From assembly GCF_002155965.1 (NCBI RefSeq), contig NZ_MUMH01000010.1, positions 1-64,000 on the forward strand: a DNA stretch of 64,000 nucleotides. The letters are read 5' to 3'. Position numbers and translations under genes: made by a program. Source of the stretch: Allokutzneria sp. NRRL B-24872. GTDB lineage: Bacteria; Actinomycetota; Actinomycetes; Mycobacteriales; Pseudonocardiaceae. This document shows positions 4,495 to 50,566 of this stretch, piece by piece (position 1 is the first letter of the stretch; the number at the start of each line of letters is the position of its first letter). The notes below the pieces were generated by a model. The model made no database searches. It was given only the letters and a program-made list of their open reading frames with translations, and was not told the DNA's origin.

Positions 4495-5103
4495 TTGCAG
4501 CGGTTCGGAGGTTTCTTCGTCGTCGGTGCCGGCGCGGGTCTGGACGCGCCGACGCTGAACGACGTGTACGACGGAGCAGGGCTCGCGGAGCGCGTCGACG
4601 ACGTCTGCGCGCGATTGGGCACGGCCGAACGGCGCGTCGGCGCTTCGATCCTGTTCCAGGGCTACACCGCACGGGTGTGGTCGCCGCTGCTCGGCGCCGT
4701 CGCGCTCAACGAGCCCGTGCCCGCGCTGCCCGCCGACGAGATCCACTGGGCGGAGAGCGGCTTCACGAGCGCGGAACCCTTGCGGGAAGCCAAGAACACG
4801 ATCGCCGAGATCGCGCTCGACGAGCACTTCGCGCGCATGGTGGCGGCGTTGAGCGGAGTGGTGGCCGAGGGGTTGCTGTGGGGCAACGCCGCGTCCTCGC
4901 TCGTCGGCACCTTGAAGGTGATCGCCAACGCGGGCGAGCTGGACCAGCGGACGGTGGACACCGCCATGTCCGTGCTCGCCGACCCGCGCCTGTGCGAAAC
5001 CGGCTCCCTCACCCCCAACGGTTACCGTCGGCGAAGCTGCTGCCTCTACTACCGCATCCCCAACGGCGGCCTCTGCGGCGACTGCTCCCTGACCCGCGCG
5101 TAA
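4495..5103 (+). CDS. FhuF-like 2Fe-2S protein (putative ferric reductase)
   Basis: A 202-residue protein that ends in a Cys-Cys, ten residues, Cys-x2-Cys cluster (CCLYYR...CGDC), the 2Fe-2S signature of FhuF-type ferric-siderophore reductases. The middle contains ASILFQGYTARVWSPLLG, typical of the actinobacterial branch. It starts only three bases after the dehydrogenase stop, on a TTG codon, so it is probably translated with the mutase operon. A later start cannot be excluded. The family reduces ferric iron in siderophores in the cytosol. Its place behind a B12 mutase is unexplained. A second, differently arranged FhuF-like gene lies at 58484. Confidence 0.75.
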   Translation: MQRFGGFFVVGAGAGLDAPTLNDVYDGAGLAERVDDVCARLGTAERRVGASILFQGYTARVWSPLLGAVALNEPVPALPADEIHWAESGFTSAEPLREAKNTIAEIALDEHFARMVAALSGVVAEGLLWGNAASSLVGTLKVIANAGELDQRTVDTAMSVLADPRLCETGSLTPNGYRRRSCCLYYRIPNGGLCGDCSLTRA

Positions 5104-5131
5104 CCACCCACCAACACCCCCGCCCACCAGC

Positions 5132-5191
5132 TAGAATGCGCCCATGCACCCCACCGCCCCGCTCGCCTCGTCACGCGCGGCCGTGGTCTAG
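5132..5191 (+). other. Leaderless-looking mini-ORF, possible gene remnant
   Basis: TAGAAT at 5132-5137 is followed six bases later by ATG (5144), the spacing expected for a leaderless transcript. The frame reads MHPTAPLASSRAAVV and stops at 5191. A hairpin element begins six bases downstream (5197). This resembles the start of a longer gene that has been cut, but no continuation is recognisable. Confidence 0.25.
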
Positions 5192-5196
5192 ACCTT

Positions 5197-5259
5197 CCCG
5201 TTTCGTACTCCTAACGGTATTTGGGAGCGCTCTCTTTCCCGAGTTGAGTACGAAACGGG
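5197..5259. repeat. Hairpin element, copy 1
   Basis: Perfect 14-bp arms CCCGTTTCGTACTC (5197-5210) and GAGTACGAAACGGG (5246-5259) are separated by 35 bases that contain a nested GGGAGCGCTC palindrome. The right arm runs into five T residues. It has the same plan as the elements at 27220 and 50599 (33-35 base loop with an inner palindrome), so it may be a dispersed element and not only a terminator for the genes upstream. Confidence 0.7.
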
Positions 5260-5320
5260 TTTTTGGCGTACCTGGCGGAGGTTGAGGGGCACGCGGGGAG
5301 AGGGGTTGTGCGGGGCCCGA

Positions 5321-5360
5321 GGTTTGCGATACAAAGTAGTTGGACTTTGTATCGCAAAGT
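5321..5360. promoter_or_regulatory. Paired operator upstream of the regulator/ABC operon
   Basis: Two near-identical palindromes in inverted order: a first site at 5323-5337 (TTTGCGATACAAAGT) and a second at 5344-5358 (ACTTTGTATCGCAAA). The 15-bp sequences are exact reverse complements. Each is itself a dyad of the form CTTTG-5-CAAAG or close to it. They end 14 bases before the first start codon of the operon. The arrangement is that of two adjacent dimer sites for a repressor, the obvious candidate being the winged-helix protein at 6007. Confidence 0.65.
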
Positions 5361-5374
5361 GGAGGGCGGGCGTG

Positions 5375-6010
5375 ATGAGGGGTCCTGCGGAGGACGAGGG
5401 GACACTGTCCCCCGCCGAGTCGCTGGCGCTGATCAGCAGCGAGCGGGCGAAGGTGGACCGGAGCCTGTCGCCGAGCCAGGCGCTGCTGTTCGGCGTGTGG
5501 GGCGCGACGTGGCTGACCGGCTGGACGCTGATGTTCCTGGCCACGCCGGGGGGCCCCGAACTGCTGCCGTTGTGGTTGGCGGGCGCGGTCTTCGCGGCGG
5601 TGGTCGTGGGCTCGATCGTGCTGTCCATCGTGGTCGGCGTGCGGGCCTCGCGCGGGATCGCCGGGCAGTCGCGGCTCAGCGGAGCGCTGCACGGCTGGAC
5701 GTGGACGCTCGGGTTCTGGGCGCTGACCGCGATCAACGTCGGCTTCACGGTGAAGCTCGGGGTGAGCATCGAGGTCACCGCGCTGCTCTGGACCACGGGC
5801 CCGCTGCTGATCATGGGGCTGCTCACCATGCTCGGCGCGGCGCAGCGGCGCAGCATCCCGGAGTACGGCGCGGGCGTCTGGCTGCTGCTCGCCGCGAGCG
5901 CGAGCGTCTACGTGGGCGTTCCGGCGAACCTGCTGGTGCTGGGCCTCGCCGGAGGCGGCGCGCTGCTCGGGCTCGCCGTCCACTTCGCGCGCCAGGCGAG
6001 GTCGGCATGA
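5375..6010 (+). CDS. Polytopic membrane protein of unknown function
   Basis: A 211-residue protein with a short polar N-terminus and about six hydrophobic segments. I do not recognise a named family. The ATG at 5375 follows GGAGGG at 5361-5366; a GTG one codon earlier is also in frame. Its TGA overlaps the ATG of the next gene, and the following genes overlap likewise, so it is the first gene of a four-gene operon ending in an ABC transporter. It may sense or accompany the transported compound, but nothing in the sequence shows that. Confidence 0.8.
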   Translation: MRGPAEDEGTLSPAESLALISSERAKVDRSLSPSQALLFGVWGATWLTGWTLMFLATPGGPELLPLWLAGAVFAAVVVGSIVLSIVVGVRASRGIAGQSRLSGALHGWTWTLGFWALTAINVGFTVKLGVSIEVTALLWTTGPLLIMGLLTMLGAAQRRSIPEYGAGVWLLLAASASVYVGVPANLLVLGLAGGGALLGLAVHFARQARSA

Positions 6011-6306
6011 CGGCGGGCCTTCCCGAGCTGGACCCGGTGATCCACGCACAAGCCCGACTGCGCGTCACGGTCGCCTTGGCCGCGCTGCCGAGCGGTGATC
6101 GGATCACCTTTCCGCGCCTGCAAGAACTGCTCGACATGACGGCGGGGAACCTGTCGACGCACCTGCGCAAGCTGGAGGACGCGGGCTACGTCGAGATCAC
6201 CAAGACGCACCAGCGCCGCACCCCGGTCACCTACGTGGAGCTGACCCCCAAGGGCCGCAGGGCTTTCGAGGACTACAGCGCGGCGCTCAAGGAGATGCTG
6301 ACATGA
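6007..6306 (+). CDS. Small winged-helix transcriptional regulator
   Basis: A 99-residue single-domain protein of the short MarR/PadR-like winged-helix kind (DUF-type HTH regulators next to ABC genes). The recognition helix is in LLDMTAGNLSTHLRKLEDAGYVEITK, followed by the wing segment RRTPVTYVELTPKGRRAF. It overlaps both neighbours by four bases (ATGA), so it is translationally coupled to them. It most likely binds the paired palindromes at 5321-5360 and represses its own operon. The inducer is unknown. Confidence 0.88.
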   Translation: MTAGLPELDPVIHAQARLRVTVALAALPSGDRITFPRLQELLDMTAGNLSTHLRKLEDAGYVEITKTHQRRTPVTYVELTPKGRRAFEDYSAALKEMLT

Positions 6307-7190
6307 TCGAGTTATCGGGCTTGGGCAAGTCCTACGGCACCGTGCACGCCGTGCGGGAACTGGATCTCAGCGTGCGTGCGGGCGAGGTGTACGGCTTCCT
6401 CGGGCGCAACGGCGCGGGCAAGACCACCACGATGCGGATGCTGCTCGGGCTCGTCCGACCGACGACCGGTTCGGGCACGGTGTTCGGGAAACCCTTGGGA
6501 GATCCCGGCTCCGTCGCACGGATCGGCTCGCTCGTGGAGTCCCCCGCCTTCTACCCGCACCTCAGCGGGCGCGACAACCTCCGCCTGCTCGCGCGTTACT
6601 CGGGGCTCAACGACACCACAGTGGACAGTGCGCTGGAGTTGTCCGGGCTGGGCGAGCGCGCCGCCGACCGCTTCACCGGCTACTCGCTCGGGATGAAGCA
6701 GCGGCTCGGCGTCGCGGCGGCCCTGCTCGGCGAGCCGGAACTGCTGATCCTGGACGAGCCCACCAACGGCCTCGATCCGGCGGGCATGCGCGAAATGCGA
6801 GAACTGGTAAGGAACTTCGCCGATGGTGGCGGCACGGTGCTGCTGTCGAGCCACCTGCTCGGCGAGGTCGAACAGGTCGCCGACCGCATCGGCATCATCC
6901 ACTGTGGACGGTTGGTCGCGGAGGGCACGCTCGCCGAGATCCGCGCTCGCCTCGGCGGCCCCCGCCTGGTGGTGCGCGCGGAGCCCGGGGCGGCGGCGGA
7001 GACCGCGCTGCGCGCTCATCCCGGAGTGCTGGGAGTGCGACGGGACGGCACGACGGTTGAAGTCGATCTCGGTACCGCGACGGCTGGCGGGATCAACAGG
7101 AGCCTTGTCGCCGAAGGCATCGAGGTCAGCGAGCTGCGTGTGGAAGAGCGCACGTTGGAGGACGTCTTCACGGGGGTGACCGCGGCATGA
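6303..7190 (+). CDS. ABC transporter ATP-binding protein
   Basis: A 295-residue ATPase of the ABC-2 (drug/antibiotic exporter, DrrA/CcmA-like) type. Walker A is GRNGAGKTT near residue 36, the signature is YSLGMKQRLG, Walker B is LLILDEPTNGLD, and the H-loop is SSHLL. The C-terminal domain after about residue 215 is the usual extension of this class. It overlaps the regulator upstream and the permease downstream. It probably energises export through the permease at 7187. Substrate unknown. Confidence 0.93.
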   Translation: MIELSGLGKSYGTVHAVRELDLSVRAGEVYGFLGRNGAGKTTTMRMLLGLVRPTTGSGTVFGKPLGDPGSVARIGSLVESPAFYPHLSGRDNLRLLARYSGLNDTTVDSALELSGLGERAADRFTGYSLGMKQRLGVAAALLGEPELLILDEPTNGLDPAGMREMRELVRNFADGGGTVLLSSHLLGEVEQVADRIGIIHCGRLVAEGTLAEIRARLGGPRLVVRAEPGAAAETALRAHPGVLGVRRDGTTVEVDLGTATAGGINRSLVAEGIEVSELRVEERTLEDVFTGVTAA

Positions 7191-8029
7191 TCACGAACAA
7201 CCTGCGGGCGGAGCTGTTCGCGCTGCGCCGCCGTCCCGGAGTCCTCGCGATGGCGGGGATGTGGTCCACCCAGGTCGTGGTCTTCGCCTACCTGGTGCCC
7301 TACATCGTCTACCTGACACAGGGTTCGGCGATGGCACCCGCCGTGGCCGCCGACATGATCTCAGGTCTGCTCCCGGAGGGCGCGCACTACTACGTCGCCG
7401 GAGCGCTGCCGACCTTCGGCGGTCCGGTGATGCTGGTGATCGGCGCGCTGCTGGCCACCGGCGACTACCGCTGGGGCACGCTGCGCACGATCCTCGGCCG
7501 CCAGTCCGATCGCGGCGCATTCCTCGGCGGGCGCTTCCTCGGCCTGCTCGTGGCACTGCTGCCGGTGGCGACGGTGACCCTCGCGCTCGGCCTGCTCAGC
7601 AGCGGCGTGATCGCCCTGGTCAACTCCAGCCCCGCGCGCTACGCCACTCCTCTTGTGCTCGCGCTGGAGCTGGGTTCGCTGTGGTTGGTGATGGCCGCGT
7701 GGGGCTCGGTCGGCTTCGCGATCGGCATGCTCACCCGCAGTCCCGTCACCGCGATCATCGTCGGTCTACTGTGGACTGTTCTCGTGGAGAACGCCGTGGC
7801 ACTGCTGGCGAACATCGTGCCAGGACTCGATTTCCTGAGCACGCTGCTGTTGGGCAACAGCTCCAATCGGCTCGCCGTCGGCCTGGGCTCCGAGCCGATC
7901 ACGATCACCGGCGCGTTCGGCGTGCAGGCGCAAGGCACTCCGCTGCTCGCAGCCGCCGTGCTCCTCGCCTACATCACCGCCGCGTTCGCCGTGAGCCACG
8001 CCGCCCTCCGCCACCGCGACGTGACCTGA
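7187..8029 (+). CDS. ABC transporter permease (ABC-2 type)
   Basis: A 280-residue integral membrane protein with about six membrane segments. It overlaps the ATPase by four bases, and the motif GALLATGDYRWGTLRTILGRQSDRGAF resembles the cytosolic loop of ABC-2 permeases. It forms the membrane part of an exporter with the preceding ATPase. It is the last gene of the operon; the repeat array at 8049 follows directly. Confidence 0.88.
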   Translation: MITNNLRAELFALRRRPGVLAMAGMWSTQVVVFAYLVPYIVYLTQGSAMAPAVAADMISGLLPEGAHYYVAGALPTFGGPVMLVIGALLATGDYRWGTLRTILGRQSDRGAFLGGRFLGLLVALLPVATVTLALGLLSSGVIALVNSSPARYATPLVLALELGSLWLVMAAWGSVGFAIGMLTRSPVTAIIVGLLWTVLVENAVALLANIVPGLDFLSTLLLGNSSNRLAVGLGSEPITITGAFGVQAQGTPLLAAAVLLAYITAAFAVSHAALRHRDVT

Positions 8030-45427: not shown

Positions 45428-46309
45428 TCAGAGCTTGTTCTGCGTCACGAACTCCTTGGCCACGTCGGCCACGGTCTCCTTGTCGATCTCGATGCGCTTG
45501 TTGAGCGCGATGAGCTTGTCCGTGGTGAGCGCGGCGGAGACCTTGTTCAGCGCCTCCTTGCCCTTGGCGTCCAAGGCTTCCGAGCGGATCAGCGGCAGGA
45601 TGTTCTGCGCCGGGTAGAGCCGCTTCGGGTCCGCCAGCGCCACGAAACCGTTGGCGGTGATGGCGGATGCGGTGGTGAACAGGTTGGCAACCTGCACCTG
45701 GCCGCTCTTGAGCGCCTCCACCGTCACCGGGCCGGCGGCGTCGGTGGTCTTGATCTCCTTGAAGGTGCAGCCGTAGAGCTGGGTGAGCTTGGCGGGCCAG
45801 CGGTCCTTCCACTCCCCCGCCGCGCCGAGCACGTACTGCGAGCACTTCGGCCCGAGGTCGGCGATCGACTTGACGCCCTGCCCGGCCAGCTCCTTGGACA
45901 CCACGAGCGCGTCGGAGTCCTCCGCAGCCGACTTCTCCAGCACCTCGAGGCCGCTGGGCACCTTCTGCTTCAGCGCCGCGGTGACCTCGTCCGGCTGCGC
46001 GGCGGGGTTCTGCTTGTCGAAGTACTGCAGCAGATTGCCGCTGTACTCCGGCACCACCGCGAGCGACTTGTCCTGCAACGCCTTCACCAGCACCTCGCGC
46101 GAACCGACGCGCGGCTTGGTGGTGACCTGCACGCCGGCGTTGGTCAACGCGCCGGCGTAGATGTGCATCAGCAGCTCGCTCTCGGAGAAGTCCGCGGAGC
46201 CGATGACGATCTGGCCGCCGGCCGCGCCGCCCCCGCCCTTGAGCGGGTCGCCACCGCATCCGGTGAGCAACAGTGCGGCGGCCGCCACGACCGCCATGGT
46301 GCGCTTCAT
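45428..46309 (-). CDS. Osmoprotectant ABC transporter substrate-binding lipoprotein
   Basis: A 293-residue lipoprotein with lipobox LTGC, then the OpuAC/ProX-type binding domain (GQIVIGSADFSESELLMHIYAGALTNAGVQVTTKPRVGSREVLVKALQDKSLAVVPEYSGNLLQYF). The ATG is preceded by AGGAAGGAA. It is the fourth gene of a four-gene operon. Expected ligands are glycine betaine, choline, carnitine or ectoine; the exact one cannot be read from sequence. Confidence 0.92.
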   Translation of the reverse strand: MKRTMAVVAAAALLLTGCGGDPLKGGGGAAGGQIVIGSADFSESELLMHIYAGALTNAGVQVTTKPRVGSREVLVKALQDKSLAVVPEYSGNLLQYFDKQNPAAQPDEVTAALKQKVPSGLEVLEKSAAEDSDALVVSKELAGQGVKSIADLGPKCSQYVLGAAGEWKDRWPAKLTQLYGCTFKEIKTTDAAGPVTVEALKSGQVQVANLFTTASAITANGFVALADPKRLYPAQNILPLIRSEALDAKGKEALNKVSAALTTDKLIALNKRIEIDKETVADVAKEFVTQNKL

Positions 46310-47022
46310 GACTCGTTCCTTCCTGAGGATTTCACCTTGGTGCGACCTGCAACGGCGGCTGCGGCCACCCGCAGACCGCGTGGCACGATGACCCGCTGCA
46401 ACCCGGCGAGCACCAGGTCCAGCAGCACCGCGAGCAGCGCGATGAACAGCGCTCCCGCCAGCACCTTCGAGTAGTCGATCACCCGGAGTCCGTCGAGCAG
46501 CAGCCTGCCGAGGCCGCCGAGACCCACGTACGCGGCGACCGATGCGGTCGCCACCACCTGAAGGGCCGCGTTGCGCAGCCCGCCCATCAGCAGCGGGAGC
46601 GCGTTGGGCACCTCCACCTGCCACAGCCGCTGCCACCCGGTCATGCCCATCCCGCGCGCGGCGTCGACGACGCCCCGGTCGGTGTCCTGCACGCCGGAGT
46701 AGGTGCCCGCCAGGATCGGCGGGATCGCGAGCACGATGAGGCCGACGATGGTGCCGGCCTCGCTGCCGCCCGCGATGAGGAACAGGAAGGTGACCAGGCC
46801 CAGGGTCGGCAACGCGCGCATGGCGTTGCTCAGCCCCACCAGCACCACGCCGCCGCGTCCCGTGTGGCCGACGTACAGGCCGAGCGGGATCGCGATGGCG
46901 GCGGCGCCGAAGACCGCGAGCAGGGTGTAGCCGAGGTGCTCCAGCATCCGGTTCGGCACCCCGTCCTGGCCCTGCCAGTGCGCGGGATCGCCGATCCAGT
47001 CGAACAGCTCCTGGAAGATCAC
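46306..47022 (-). CDS. Osmoprotectant ABC transporter permease
   Basis: A 238-residue permease of the OpuCB/OpuCD (ProW) type with five to six helices. The coupling-loop region is GVVDAARGMGMTGWQRLWQVEVPNALPLLMGGLRNAALQVVATASVAAYVG. GTG 47022 overlaps the upstream permease stop by four bases and its own end overlaps the binding protein start. Confidence 0.92.
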   Translation of the reverse strand: MIFQELFDWIGDPAHWQGQDGVPNRMLEHLGYTLLAVFGAAAIAIPLGLYVGHTGRGGVVLVGLSNAMRALPTLGLVTFLFLIAGGSEAGTIVGLIVLAIPPILAGTYSGVQDTDRGVVDAARGMGMTGWQRLWQVEVPNALPLLMGGLRNAALQVVATASVAAYVGLGGLGRLLLDGLRVIDYSKVLAGALFIALLAVLLDLVLAGLQRVIVPRGLRVAAAAVAGRTKVKSSGRNES

Positions 47023-47684
47023 GTGGTGCCTCCCGCACGCAGCCAGGGGGTGAGCGCCCTGCGCAGCCCGACCAGGACCATGTCCACCACCAGCGCCAGC
47101 ACCAGGGTGAGCACGATGCCGACGACGATCGGCGCGGTGTAGCTGATCTGGAAGCCGCTGGTGAACAGCACGCCGAGCCCGCCGGTGCCGATCAGGGCGC
47201 CGACGCTGACGAGGCTGATGTTGCTCACCGACGCCACCCTGACCCCGGCGGAGAGCACCGGGACCGACAGCGGCAGTTCGACGGTGACGAAGCGGCGCAG
47301 CGGCCGGTAGCCCATCGCGGTCGCCGCGGCGACCACGTGGAAGGGCACCGCGTCCAGCGCGTCGCAGACGGGTCGCACGAGCAGCGCCGTGGTGTAGACG
47401 GTCAACGCCACCACCACGTTGACGCTGTCCAGGATCTGCGTGCCGAGCACCACCGGGATCACCACGAACAGAGCCAGCGAGGGAACCGTGTAGACGGCGT
47501 TGGAGAAGCCGAACACGATGCCGCTCGCCGCGCGGTGGCGGTGCGCGAGCCAGCCGAGCGGGATCGCCAGCGCGAGCCCGATCACCAGTGGCAGCAGGGA
47601 GAGGTAGATGTGTTGCAGGAGTTGGGTGAGCACCAGTTCCTGGTTGCTCGTGCTGCTCAGGTACCGCGAGAGGTCCTCGAACAT
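47019..47684 (-). CDS. Osmoprotectant ABC transporter permease
   Basis: A 221-residue second permease of the same class. The coupling loop is VVAAATAMGYRPLRRFVTVELPLSVPVLSAGVRVASVSNISLVSVGALIGTGGLG. ATG 47684 was chosen because it overlaps the ATPase stop (ATGA); a longer frame is antisense-like. Two permeases, one ATPase and one binding lipoprotein make a complete OpuC-type importer. Confidence 0.92.
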   Translation of the reverse strand: MFEDLSRYLSSTSNQELVLTQLLQHIYLSLLPLVIGLALAIPLGWLAHRHRAASGIVFGFSNAVYTVPSLALFVVIPVVLGTQILDSVNVVVALTVYTTALLVRPVCDALDAVPFHVVAAATAMGYRPLRRFVTVELPLSVPVLSAGVRVASVSNISLVSVGALIGTGGLGVLFTSGFQISYTAPIVVGIVLTLVLALVVDMVLVGLRRALTPWLRAGGTT

Positions 47685-48778
47685 CAGGCGGCGTCCTTCC
47701 GCCGCTCCTCGATCAGGTCGATCACCTGCTGTGCGGTGACCACGCCGGTGTAGCACCCGTCGCCGTCCACCACGACCCCGAGGCCGGACGGTGACGAGAG
47801 CGCGGCGTCCAGTGCTCCGCGCAGCGCGGTCCCCTCGGTGTAGAGGGAGCCACCCGGCCGCAGGTCCTCCTCGGCGGGCTCGCCCTCGACCACGACACCC
47901 GGCGGCAGCCAGCCGCGCGGGCGGCGGTCGTCGTCGAGCACCAGCGTCCAGTCCGGACCGCCCACAGTGGACGGTCGCGAGTCGTGCAGGCCCACGGTGC
48001 TGACGCCGCCGAGCTGGATGCCGTCGGCGCCGAGGAAGGAGAGCCCCCGGTAGCCGCGGTCCTTGCCGACGAAGGAGGAGACGAAGTCATCCGCGGGGTT
48101 GGACAGCAGTTCGGCGGGCGCCGCGTACTGCGCCAGCACCCCGCCCTTGCGGAACACCGCGACCTTCTCGCCGATCCGGACCGCCTCGTCGATGTCGTGG
48201 GTGACGAAGACGATGGTCTTGTCCAGATCCGCCTGGAGCCGCAGCAGCTCGTCCTGGAGTCCTTCCCGCACAACGGGATCGACCGCGCTGAAGGGTTCGT
48301 CCATCAGCAGCACCGGCGGGTCCGCCGCCAGCGCGCGGGCCACGCCGACGCGCTGCTGCTGGCCGCCGGAGAGCTGCGCCGGGTAGCGCTTGCCCATGGC
48401 GGCGTCGAGCCCGACGATCTCCAGCAGCTCCGCGGCGCGGGCCCGCGCCTTGCGCCGCGTCCAGCCGGACAGCAGCGGCACGGTCGCCACGTTGTCCAGC
48501 ACGGTGCGGTGCGGGAACAGCCCGGCCTGCTGGATGACGTAACCGATTCGTCTTCGCAGCAGCGCGGGATTCGATTTTCGAATGTCCTCGCCGTCCACCA
48601 GCACTGTGCCGCTGGTCGGCTCGATCATGCGGTTCACCATCCGCAGCGATGTCGTCTTGCCACACCCCGACGGCCCGACAAAAACGGTGATCGTTCCGGC
48701 TTCGACGACCATGTCGAGGTTGTCGACGGCTGTGGTGCCGTCGTCGAAGCGCTTGGTCACGGCCTGGAACTCGATCAT
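47684..48778 (-). CDS. Osmoprotectant ABC transporter ATPase with CBS domains
   Basis: A 364-residue ATPase. Walker A GPSGCGKTT, Q-loop VIQQAGLFPHRTVLDNVATVP, signature LSGGQQQRVGVARAL, Walker B VLLMDEPFSAVDP, and H-loop THDIDEAV. The C-terminal 110 residues form a CBS-domain module, known in OpuA/OpuC ATPases as an ionic-strength or c-di-AMP sensor. First gene of the operon; the 165-base region upstream holds a strong hairpin. Confidence 0.94.
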   Translation of the reverse strand: MIEFQAVTKRFDDGTTAVDNLDMVVEAGTITVFVGPSGCGKTTSLRMVNRMIEPTSGTVLVDGEDIRKSNPALLRRRIGYVIQQAGLFPHRTVLDNVATVPLLSGWTRRKARARAAELLEIVGLDAAMGKRYPAQLSGGQQQRVGVARALAADPPVLLMDEPFSAVDPVVREGLQDELLRLQADLDKTIVFVTHDIDEAVRIGEKVAVFRKGGVLAQYAAPAELLSNPADDFVSSFVGKDRGYRGLSFLGADGIQLGGVSTVGLHDSRPSTVGGPDWTLVLDDDRRPRGWLPPGVVVEGEPAEEDLRPGGSLYTEGTALRGALDAALSSPSGLGVVVDGDGCYTGVVTAQQVIDLIEERRKDAA

Positions 48779-48825
48779 TCGAGTCCCCCTTGTGGTCGTG
48801 ACGGCCCCTTGCCGGCCGCCCGTAT

Positions 48826-48871
48826 GTCGGCGACGGCTGATGTGCCGTTGAGAGCATCAGCCGTCGCCGAC
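48826..48871. promoter_or_regulatory. 17-bp perfect hairpin between the osmoprotectant operon and the BpsA-like gene
   Basis: GTCGGCGACGGCTGATG (48826-48842) and its exact complement at 48855-48871 flank a 12-base loop. The gap is divergent, so this is not a terminator for either operon. It may be an operator or a leader RNA structure for the importer operon; its right arm ends 73 bases before the BpsA-like start. Confidence 0.55.
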
Positions 48872-48943
48872 GTTCGACCTTAGTCCGATCGACTGACAGG
48901 GGCGAGGCGGACGCGGGACCGATACGTCTAAGGTCAACAGTTT

Positions 48944-50566
48944 GTGACCACCGATGACCCCGTGCAGCGCGTCTCGACCCTTCTCGCCGACCACGGAGTC
49001 CACGGCCGCAGGCTGCGGATCGTCGTGGCGATGCTCACGTCGGGGTGGCAGTCGCTGGCCGAACTCGTGCGCCAGCCAGCTGTCCCGCGCCGCACCGTCG
49101 AGGAACTGCTCGCCGCCATGGGACCCGACATCGAGCGCGACGGCGACCGCCACCGCATCCACCCGTGGCGCACCACGGTGTACCGCGAGCACCTCGAACT
49201 GGGCACGGAGTTGGGCAATGCCCTGAACTACACAGATCCGCTCGACGCCGCGGCGCAGGTGCACGAGGAGATGGTCACGCGGATCAGGCAGGACATCCAC
49301 GCGGTGCCCGCTCCGATGCCCGCGCTGGACCACGTCGCCGCGACCGCGCAAACGATGTTGCGACGCGCGATGTGGCTGGACGAGCAGTACACGCTCTCCG
49401 GAGCGCGGCTGCTGTGCCTGGGCGATCACGACCTCACCTCGCTCGCGGTGTGCGCGGTGCGGCCGGACCTCGAAGTGCTCGTGGTGGACCTGGACGAGCG
49501 CGTGCTGGAGTTCATCGACACCCGCGCGGCCGAACGCGGCTTCAACGTCCGCTGCGTGCACGCGGACTTCCGCTTCGGCCTGCCGCCGGCCGCGCAGGGT
49601 TGGGCGGACCTCGTGTTCACCGATCCTCCTTACACCCCAGAGGGAATCGGCCTCTTCGTCGCGCGCGCGGCCTCGTGCCTGCGCGATGTCGACATGGGCC
49701 GCATCCTGCTCGCCTACGGCTTCAGCGAGCGCAATCCCACGCTCGGGCTGAAGGTGCAGCAGGAGATCATGCAGCTCGGCGTGCTGTTCGAGGCGATCCT
49801 GCCGCGCTTCAACCGCTACCACGGCGCGCAGGCGGTCGGCAGCGCCAGCGAGCTGTACGTGCTGCGCGCGACCTCCAAGACGCGCAAGCTGCTCGACCGT
49901 CCGGCGAGCACGGCGATCTACACGCACGGCCCGCAATCGGTTGAGGCGCAGGACAAAACGGCTTCGTCGCTGCTGGAGTCCTTGCGCGCCAAGGCTTCCG
50001 CCGACGGCAAGCTCAAGGTCGACGATGTCCGCGGTCCCGCGTGGGACAAGCCGATCAACGCCGCCGACGACACCGCGCTCGCCATCAACGCGACCGGCGA
50101 CCCCGGCCCGTGGCTGCTGCGCGTGCTGCTCGCCGCGTCCGCGCCCCGCGTGGCCGTTCTCGTGGCCAACAACCACATCGACCTGTCCAACCAGGCGGGC
50201 CAGCGCGCGCTCACGGCGGCGTTGCGGCACAAGTACCGCCTGCGTTTCCTGCGCAGCACCCCCGACGACCGCTCAGCCGTGGTGGTCGCCGAGCAGATCC
50301 CGGCCGACCGCCTCGACGCGGGTGAGAAGCTCGCCCGGCACATCCTCGACCGCGCTCACGGCAAGGTCGGCAACCTCTGGCGCGAGGGCTTGATCAGCAC
50401 CGCCAAGGCCACCGGCACCACGCTCACCCGCAACGCCGCCCGCGACCTGGTCGCCGAGGCCGCCCCCACTCCCACCGACCTCACCCTCCGCCTCATCGAC
50501 ATCCCCCGCCACCGCATCGCCCCGCTCCTCGACGCCATCACCGCCTCGGCCGCCGACCTCCCCTAG
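48944..50566 (+). CDS. BpsA-like branched polyamine synthase (aminopropyltransferase) with extra C-terminal region
   Basis: A 540-residue protein. A winged-helix-like N-terminus (about 10-80) precedes a Rossmann aminopropyltransferase domain: LLCLGDHDLTSLAV (about 151-164), VVDLDERVLEFIDTRA, and VFTDPPYTPEGIGLFVARA (Asp227-Pro-Pro-Tyr230). This layout matches N4-bis(aminopropyl)spermidine synthase BpsA, known mainly from thermophiles, which use DPP-E where this has DPPY. BpsA is about 350 residues; here an additional 190 or so follow residue 350 (LESLRAKASADGKLKVDDVRG and onward) with no family I recognise. The GTG start has AAGGTCAAC upstream. The substrate is probably spermidine-like or decarboxylated SAM-dependent, but a methyltransferase role remains possible. 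Confidence 0.75.
   Translation: MTTDDPVQRVSTLLADHGVHGRRLRIVVAMLTSGWQSLAELVRQPAVPRRTVEELLAAMGPDIERDGDRHRIHPWRTTVYREHLELGTELGNALNYTDPLDAAAQVHEEMVTRIRQDIHAVPAPMPALDHVAATAQTMLRRAMWLDEQYTLSGARLLCLGDHDLTSLAVCAVRPDLEVLVVDLDERVLEFIDTRAAERGFNVRCVHADFRFGLPPAAQGWADLVFTDPPYTPEGIGLFVARAASCLRDVDMGRILLAYGFSERNPTLGLKVQQEIMQLGVLFEAILPRFNRYHGAQAVGSASELYVLRATSKTRKLLDRPASTAIYTHGPQSVEAQDKTASSLLESLRAKASADGKLKVDDVRGPAWDKPINAADDTALAINATGDPGPWLLRVLLAASAPRVAVLVANNHIDLSNQAGQRALTAALRHKYRLRFLRSTPDDRSAVVVAEQIPADRLDAGEKLARHILDRAHGKVGNLWREGLISTAKATGTTLTRNAARDLVAEAAPTPTDLTLRLIDIPRHRIAPLLDAITASAADLP

Follow-up and report, generated by a model that had tools for sequence, protein, structure and literature searches.

BpsA, or N4-bis(aminopropyl)spermidine synthase (EC 2.5.1.128), is a polyamine enzyme of heat-loving microbes. 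The proteins of T. kodakarensis (PDB 5xnc) and Thermus thermophilus (6j27) belong to PF01861 and comprise a class I SAM-fold core of about 230 residues together with an extra N-terminal domain. In the T. kodakarensis enzyme (Tk-BpsA), residues Asp159 and Asp160 are essential and hold the aminopropyl arm of decarboxylated SAM (dcSAM), and the acidic C-terminal residues 339-345 carry this arm (PMC12979288). As PF01861 is named for branched-polyamine synthesis, members from actinobacteria will probably be taken for polyamine enzymes, and a literature search over a limited set found no paper on PF01861/DUF43 in actinobacteria. In this regard, a first-pass annotation of a 64,000-nucleotide stretch of DNA from Allokutzneria sp. 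NRRL B-24872, called the window below, described one of its genes as a homologue of the branched-polyamine synthase. The comparison that follows leaves the homology standing and makes the function very unlikely.

Gene, domains and distribution

The open reading frame runs from 48944 to 50566 on the forward strand, starts with GTG and encodes 540 amino acids. Pfam searches placed BpsA_C (PF01861) over residues 112-298 of the protein with 97 bits, for a curated cut-off of 27, and matched the same family in 45 of 45 members; outside this region no Pfam family reached its curated cut-off in the window protein, and NCBIfam gave no match to it. Among known structures, Tk-BpsA (5xnc) matches residues 108-293 with an E of 3e-15, and the Pyrococcus protein 2qm3 also matches. 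The AF2 model of the whole protein (pLDDT 89.6, pTM 0.90) is consistent with a three-domain layout, each domain being encoded on the forward strand. The N-terminal domain (residues 1-98; 48944-49237) is winged-helix-like, with a helix/hairpin pattern in the model and weak profile matches to HTH_43 in 18 and to DprA_WH in 8 of the 45 members. It is followed by the BpsA-type class I SAM-fold core (residues 99-332; 49238-49939) and by a C-terminal domain (residues 345-540; 49976-50563), delineated from the AF2 model and Foldseek, whose roughly 195 residues matched no Pfam family, in agreement with the first-pass description of a region of no recognised family. The three motifs quoted in that description, GDHDLTS (residues 160-166), DLDERVLEFID and DPPYTPEG, are present exactly as given, and its assignment of the first 350 residues to BpsA holds as homology but shrinks in extent to about 190 residues (112-298), residues 1-98 forming a separate winged-helix-like domain. 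Two profile matches of the C-terminal region were set aside: an SDR-like one to PF21777 (residues 449-509 of the window protein), found in only 1 of 45 members, and those to HPS6, a eukaryotic family, which are weak, occur in 11 of 45 members and are attributed to chance.

The protein has homologues, for the most part full length, in 40 of 60 genomes from the window's family, and in a sample of the class 63 of 297 genomes (about one fifth), spread over several families, gave some match, a few of them only to the GDDD relatives described below. Window-type proteins are also found outside the class, in two genomes of another family of the same phylum (f79), where both (L199 and L200) are full-length and keep GDHD, with DPPYS replacing DPPYT. 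Beyond the window's family identity drops to about 34-44%, with the three-domain layout retained, and the closest named relative, in Allokutzneria sp. A3M-2-11 16, is 92% identical and lies in an entire neighbourhood of the same order. Such a breadth of homologues, across the family, the class and a further class, argues against a chance open reading frame; the gene is an old single gene and no local oddity. A search for viral relatives of the protein found none.

Active site and phylogeny

Once 20 is subtracted from the chain numbers of 5xnc to obtain native numbering, its GDDD motif occupies positions 157-160, as in PMC12979288. Alignment with this structure places the GDHD motif of the window protein (residues 160-163; 49421-49432) at the same site, where the position of Asp159 is taken by His162, a histidine in 62 of 62 aligned members, and Asp160 is kept as Asp163; a GDDD with both aspartates is thus not found in the window type. 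A second change falls in the DPPY motif (residues 227-230; 49622-49633), which is DPPE in Tk-BpsA, with Glu228 becoming Tyr230; this tyrosine after DPP, correctly pointed out in the first-pass annotation, is invariant in the 62 members. The FNRY motif (residues 289-292; 49808-49819) corresponds to FNEY in Tk-BpsA, and here Glu289, beside the substrate residue Tyr290, is replaced in most members by Arg291. Altogether, three acids of the polyamine pocket are changed (D159H, E228Y and E289R), and the residues found invariant across the alignment (His162, Asp163 and Asp227-Pro-Pro-Tyr230) are kept too in two members from another class. Gly157, Asp158, Asp206, Asp225 and Tyr290 of Tk-BpsA are conserved, the last position being Phe in 13 of 62 members, and the counterpart of Glu259, a residue that in Tk-BpsA belongs to the polyamine site together with Asp225 and Tyr290, shifts with the alignment (Asn264 in one, an acidic residue in another) and varies within the family. 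An acidic carrier tail was looked for in eight members of diverse origin, where no acidic run follows the core (longest run, 1), and the zinc-type CxxC of the N-terminal part of 5xnc, which recurs in the GDDD homologue described below, is absent from the sequence of the window protein.

In a tree of the core, the sampled family falls into three clades, each on one side of a branch, namely canonical BpsA (GDDD, DPPE), a GDDD/DPPY group and the window type (GDHD, DPPY). The window-type clade reaches a support of 100/100, and a smaller tree gives the same split.

Donor supply

The availability of dcSAM was surveyed in 80 genomes that carry the gene and have a completeness of 90% or more, with AdoMet decarboxylase defined by PF02675. 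On controls that included E. coli, B. subtilis and Thermotoga this model recovered its targets, and the counts cover PF02675 only, the model for the PF01536 type of AdoMet decarboxylase being silent on its own control too. PF02675 was present in 29 of the 80 genomes and missing in 51, with a marked division between the window's family (26 of 28 gene-carrying genomes) and the remainder (3 of 52, leaving 49 without it). The hosts therefore usually do not make the donor, and the family taken together is independent of it; dcSAM cannot, in general, be the donor for the window's clade. Moreover, since the active-site residues are identical across families, the enzyme is unlikely, as judged from sequence, to need dcSAM in any of them. 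The window's own genome has both speD (AdoMet decarboxylase) and speE; a gene resembling decarboxylases of the ornithine/diaminopimelate type, speD and speE stand there in a row (C471, locus L020, about 5000-7595, forward strand), which is the ordinary spermidine pathway.

Structure of the core and of the C-terminal domain

The core of the AF2 model (residues 97-332) superposes best on the BpsA-type structures 2qm3, 5xnc and 6j27, with Z of 23-25. The next nearest folds are the METTL5 18S rRNA m6A methyltransferase (Z 18.6), archaeal PH1948 (17.8) and Trm11/Trm14/TrmN (14-15). The xPPY/F-type motif is that of amine methylation, and the core combines a class I fold with a motif of the D/NPPY/F form (DPPY is invariant among the 62 members, and RNA N-methyltransferases match the core at Z 14-19). 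METTL5, PH1948 and aTrm11 share with the window protein the class I core and the motif, at 12-18% identity, and they lack its C-terminal domain.

Structure prediction of the C-terminal region, proposed in the first-pass annotation together with a profile search, gave a confident model. Folded alone, the domain reached an AF2 pLDDT of 95.3, and Foldseek returned matches with E from 8e-5 (Dim1, 3fyc), the first 27 being all KsgA/Dim1 proteins, their mitochondrial relatives and yeast mtTFB. The likeness covers the second half of the Rossmann part and the helical domain of KsgA/Dim1 (PF00398), in the same order: the window domain has only about four strands plus a C-terminal helical domain, and the SAM-binding half of a methyltransferase appears to be missing from the model. 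Against KsgA/Dim1, the VIA Z is 5-6, with a large rmsd over the whole domain. A homology in sequence found no support with either the family-only or the phylum-wide KsgA set; with the latter, hhalign scored 10.3, below the column-shuffled controls (mean 13.1), and RrnaAD (PF00398) is not among the families matched by the 45 members at an E of 10. The local profile alignments to KsgA do fall in its C-terminal part, as the structural alignments do. Because the profile-profile comparison fails and RrnaAD is not matched, the domain as modelled is KsgA-like in shape only. A further likeness, to the helical subdomain of ABC transporters (Z 8 over about 62 residues), was dismissed as a common helix arrangement, its score falling below the VIA guidance for helical matches. 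The same genome has two extra RrnaAD genes of the KsgA/Erm type close together (C152, 10968-14496) and a housekeeping-type KsgA elsewhere (C368).

Genomic neighbourhood

The gene is indeed divergent from an osmoprotectant importer, as first annotated, the OpuC/OsmF-type genes for a binding protein, two permeases and an ATPase lying on the reverse strand at 45428-48778 (PF04069, 148 bits; ABC_tran, 122 bits). In the window's family, all 79 readable loci have the importer ATPase next to the gene. Most of these loci also keep genes for a malic enzyme, RfbC and a GGDEF protein, so that the importer linkage is part of a conserved block. The 20 distant loci that were read contain neither the importer nor these three genes, and a general functional link to the importer was accordingly discarded as confined to the family. 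In family f18 the gene stands beside gltB-like and lgt-like genes in a trp-containing block (names read from sequence); no neighbour is common to all families, nor does any conserved operon partner hint at RNA. The hairpin that had been reported in the shared intergenic region is also real, an inverted repeat at 48821-48876 with 22-nt arms, 17 bp of them perfect, and a 12-nt loop. It is found in the window and the sister species only, with one mismatch in the latter, and is absent from other genera; at another locus (L026) a different, 18-bp perfect inverted repeat occupies the same place. A conserved operator was rejected here, only 4 of the 79 family loci exceeding shuffles.

Proposed function and alternatives

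The reading that we favour, with a probability of about 0.5, is that of a SAM-dependent N-methyltransferase evolved from the BpsA fold, whose most likely methyl acceptor is an amino nitrogen in RNA. Directly established are the predicted fold, the altered residues, a clade of its own and the lack of AdoMet decarboxylase in most hosts; SAM as the cofactor, methyl as the transferred group and RNA as the target are what we infer. RNA ranks first among the possible targets on account of the closest folds other than BpsA, the METTL5 rRNA m6A and aTrm11/Trm14 m2G methyltransferases, and of the extra domain's shape, for which KsgA/Dim1 comes first; the invariant His162, Asp163 and DPPY, the altered pocket acids, the fully supported clade and the donor counts speak for the same enzyme. 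In its active site, the class I core would bind SAM, with Asp163 holding the alpha-amino group and His162, in place of Asp159, holding the carboxylate that dcSAM lacks, a pairing suggested by the alignment and by the published role of Asp159/Asp160 (PMC12979288). The DPPY loop would then hold the target amine before the methyl group, and the winged helix at the N terminus, together with the KsgA-like domain at the C terminus, would position the nucleic acid. On the other hand, the fit of DPPY to methyltransferases, named in the first-pass annotation as what would count against a polyamine enzyme, is real as a motif but not diagnostic: DPPY also occurs in GDDD homologues linked to speD and is no proof of methyl transfer. 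As it is common to probable dcSAM users, it is His162, Arg291 and the donor test that carry weight. Against this methyltransferase also stand the lack of sequence support for the KsgA likeness and its VIA Z of only 5-6, the want of a conserved operon partner pointing to RNA and a net charge of the domains near zero.

The same core and motif would also suit a SAM-dependent methyltransferase of a protein or small molecule, and the sister GDDD proteins are weakly like the protein-glutamine methyltransferase PrmC; such a substrate is doubtful, since a winged helix and a KsgA-like domain fit nucleic acid better and the families share no conserved metabolic operon around the gene. The main SAM-using alternative to methyl transfer is the transfer of the aminocarboxypropyl arm, by a 3-amino-3-carboxypropyl (acp) transferase that would keep the cofactor orientation of BpsA, take SAM for dcSAM, use RNA or a small molecule as acceptor of the acp group and release MTA. 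Descent from a fold that transfers propyl arms would favour it, as would the retention of one Asp for the amine and the change of the other to a His that could meet the carboxylate, in hosts that mostly do not make dcSAM; we nevertheless judge it unlikely, there being no positive sign of propyl-arm transfer and the arm-carrying acidic residues of Tk-BpsA being missing, so that transfer would have to be direct. Decidedly unlikely is its fuller version, in which a BpsA-derived enzyme would retain the donor geometry and place acp from SAM onto RNA or another acceptor while its degenerate KsgA-like half binds RNA. If true, that version would mean a new route to acp modification in actinobacteria. 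A non-catalytic DNA-binding regulator sensing SAM or a nucleotide, for instance one of the divergent importer, could be argued from the N-terminal winged helix, the constant adjacency of the importer within the family and the intergenic inverted repeat, but is quite improbable: the active-site residues belong to the most conserved in the protein, the importer is not near the gene outside the family, and the repeat is confined to the genus. As to the first-pass view, an aminopropyltransferase making branched polyamines from spermidine and dcSAM, the BpsA_C family and fold, the speD-speE pair of this genome and the frequency of speD in gene-carrying genomes of the family (26/28) are in its favour. 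The residues (Asp159 to His in all members, with neither acidic carrier tail nor CxxC), the separate clade and the donor supply, with 49 of 52 gene-carrying genomes outside the family devoid of the decarboxylase, together make this function very unlikely, and a GDDD-type homologue adjoins another speD of this very genome.

Compared with BpsA, then, the window protein differs in Asp159 to His, Glu228 to Tyr and Glu289 to Arg, in the loss of the carrier tail and CxxC, in the additional C-terminal domain of about 195 residues and in hosts that mostly lack AdoMet decarboxylase. What is left to explain would be a conserved SAM enzyme, so far uncharacterised, that includes a domain not described before. 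The single-residue switch from Asp159 to His offers a direct test of donor change in a propyl-transferase fold.

Relatives linked to AdoMet decarboxylase

In the four GDDD/DPPY loci examined (C135, L138, L139 and L140), speD adjoins the homologue or lies within a few kb of it. These proteins share with the window protein PF01861, DPPY and the conserved core, but differ from it in having GDDD, F(N/S)EY and CxxC pairs and no KsgA-like domain, and their genes have speD, GNAT, FkbH or carrier-protein-related genes as neighbours. They probably use dcSAM. One of them belongs to the window's own genome (C135, locus L019, 7090-10482, forward strand), where speD, a 419-residue GDDD/DPPY homologue with CxxC pairs, a GNAT acetyltransferase, an FkbH-domain protein (TIGR01686, 200 bits) and a small carrier protein follow in a row; this small biosynthetic cluster may put aminopropyl groups on its product. 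Standing next to speD, this homologue is the better candidate for aminopropyl or branched-polyamine-like chemistry in this genome, and speD-linked GDDD homologues are a better place to seek aminopropyl chemistry in mesophiles. In other actinobacteria (L138, 7798-11292; L139; L140, 8905-13239), the GDDD homologue is fused to a GNAT domain with speD nearby, beside a 4'-phosphopantetheinyl transferase gene in L138 and an FkbH gene in L140, and these are the C135 cluster in other arrangements. Canonical-looking BpsA proteins, with GDDD, DPPE, CxxC and acidic residues near the C terminus, occur in other, small genomes of the phylum (L204-L207), whose hosts are, to judge from these motifs, possible true producers of branched polyamines.
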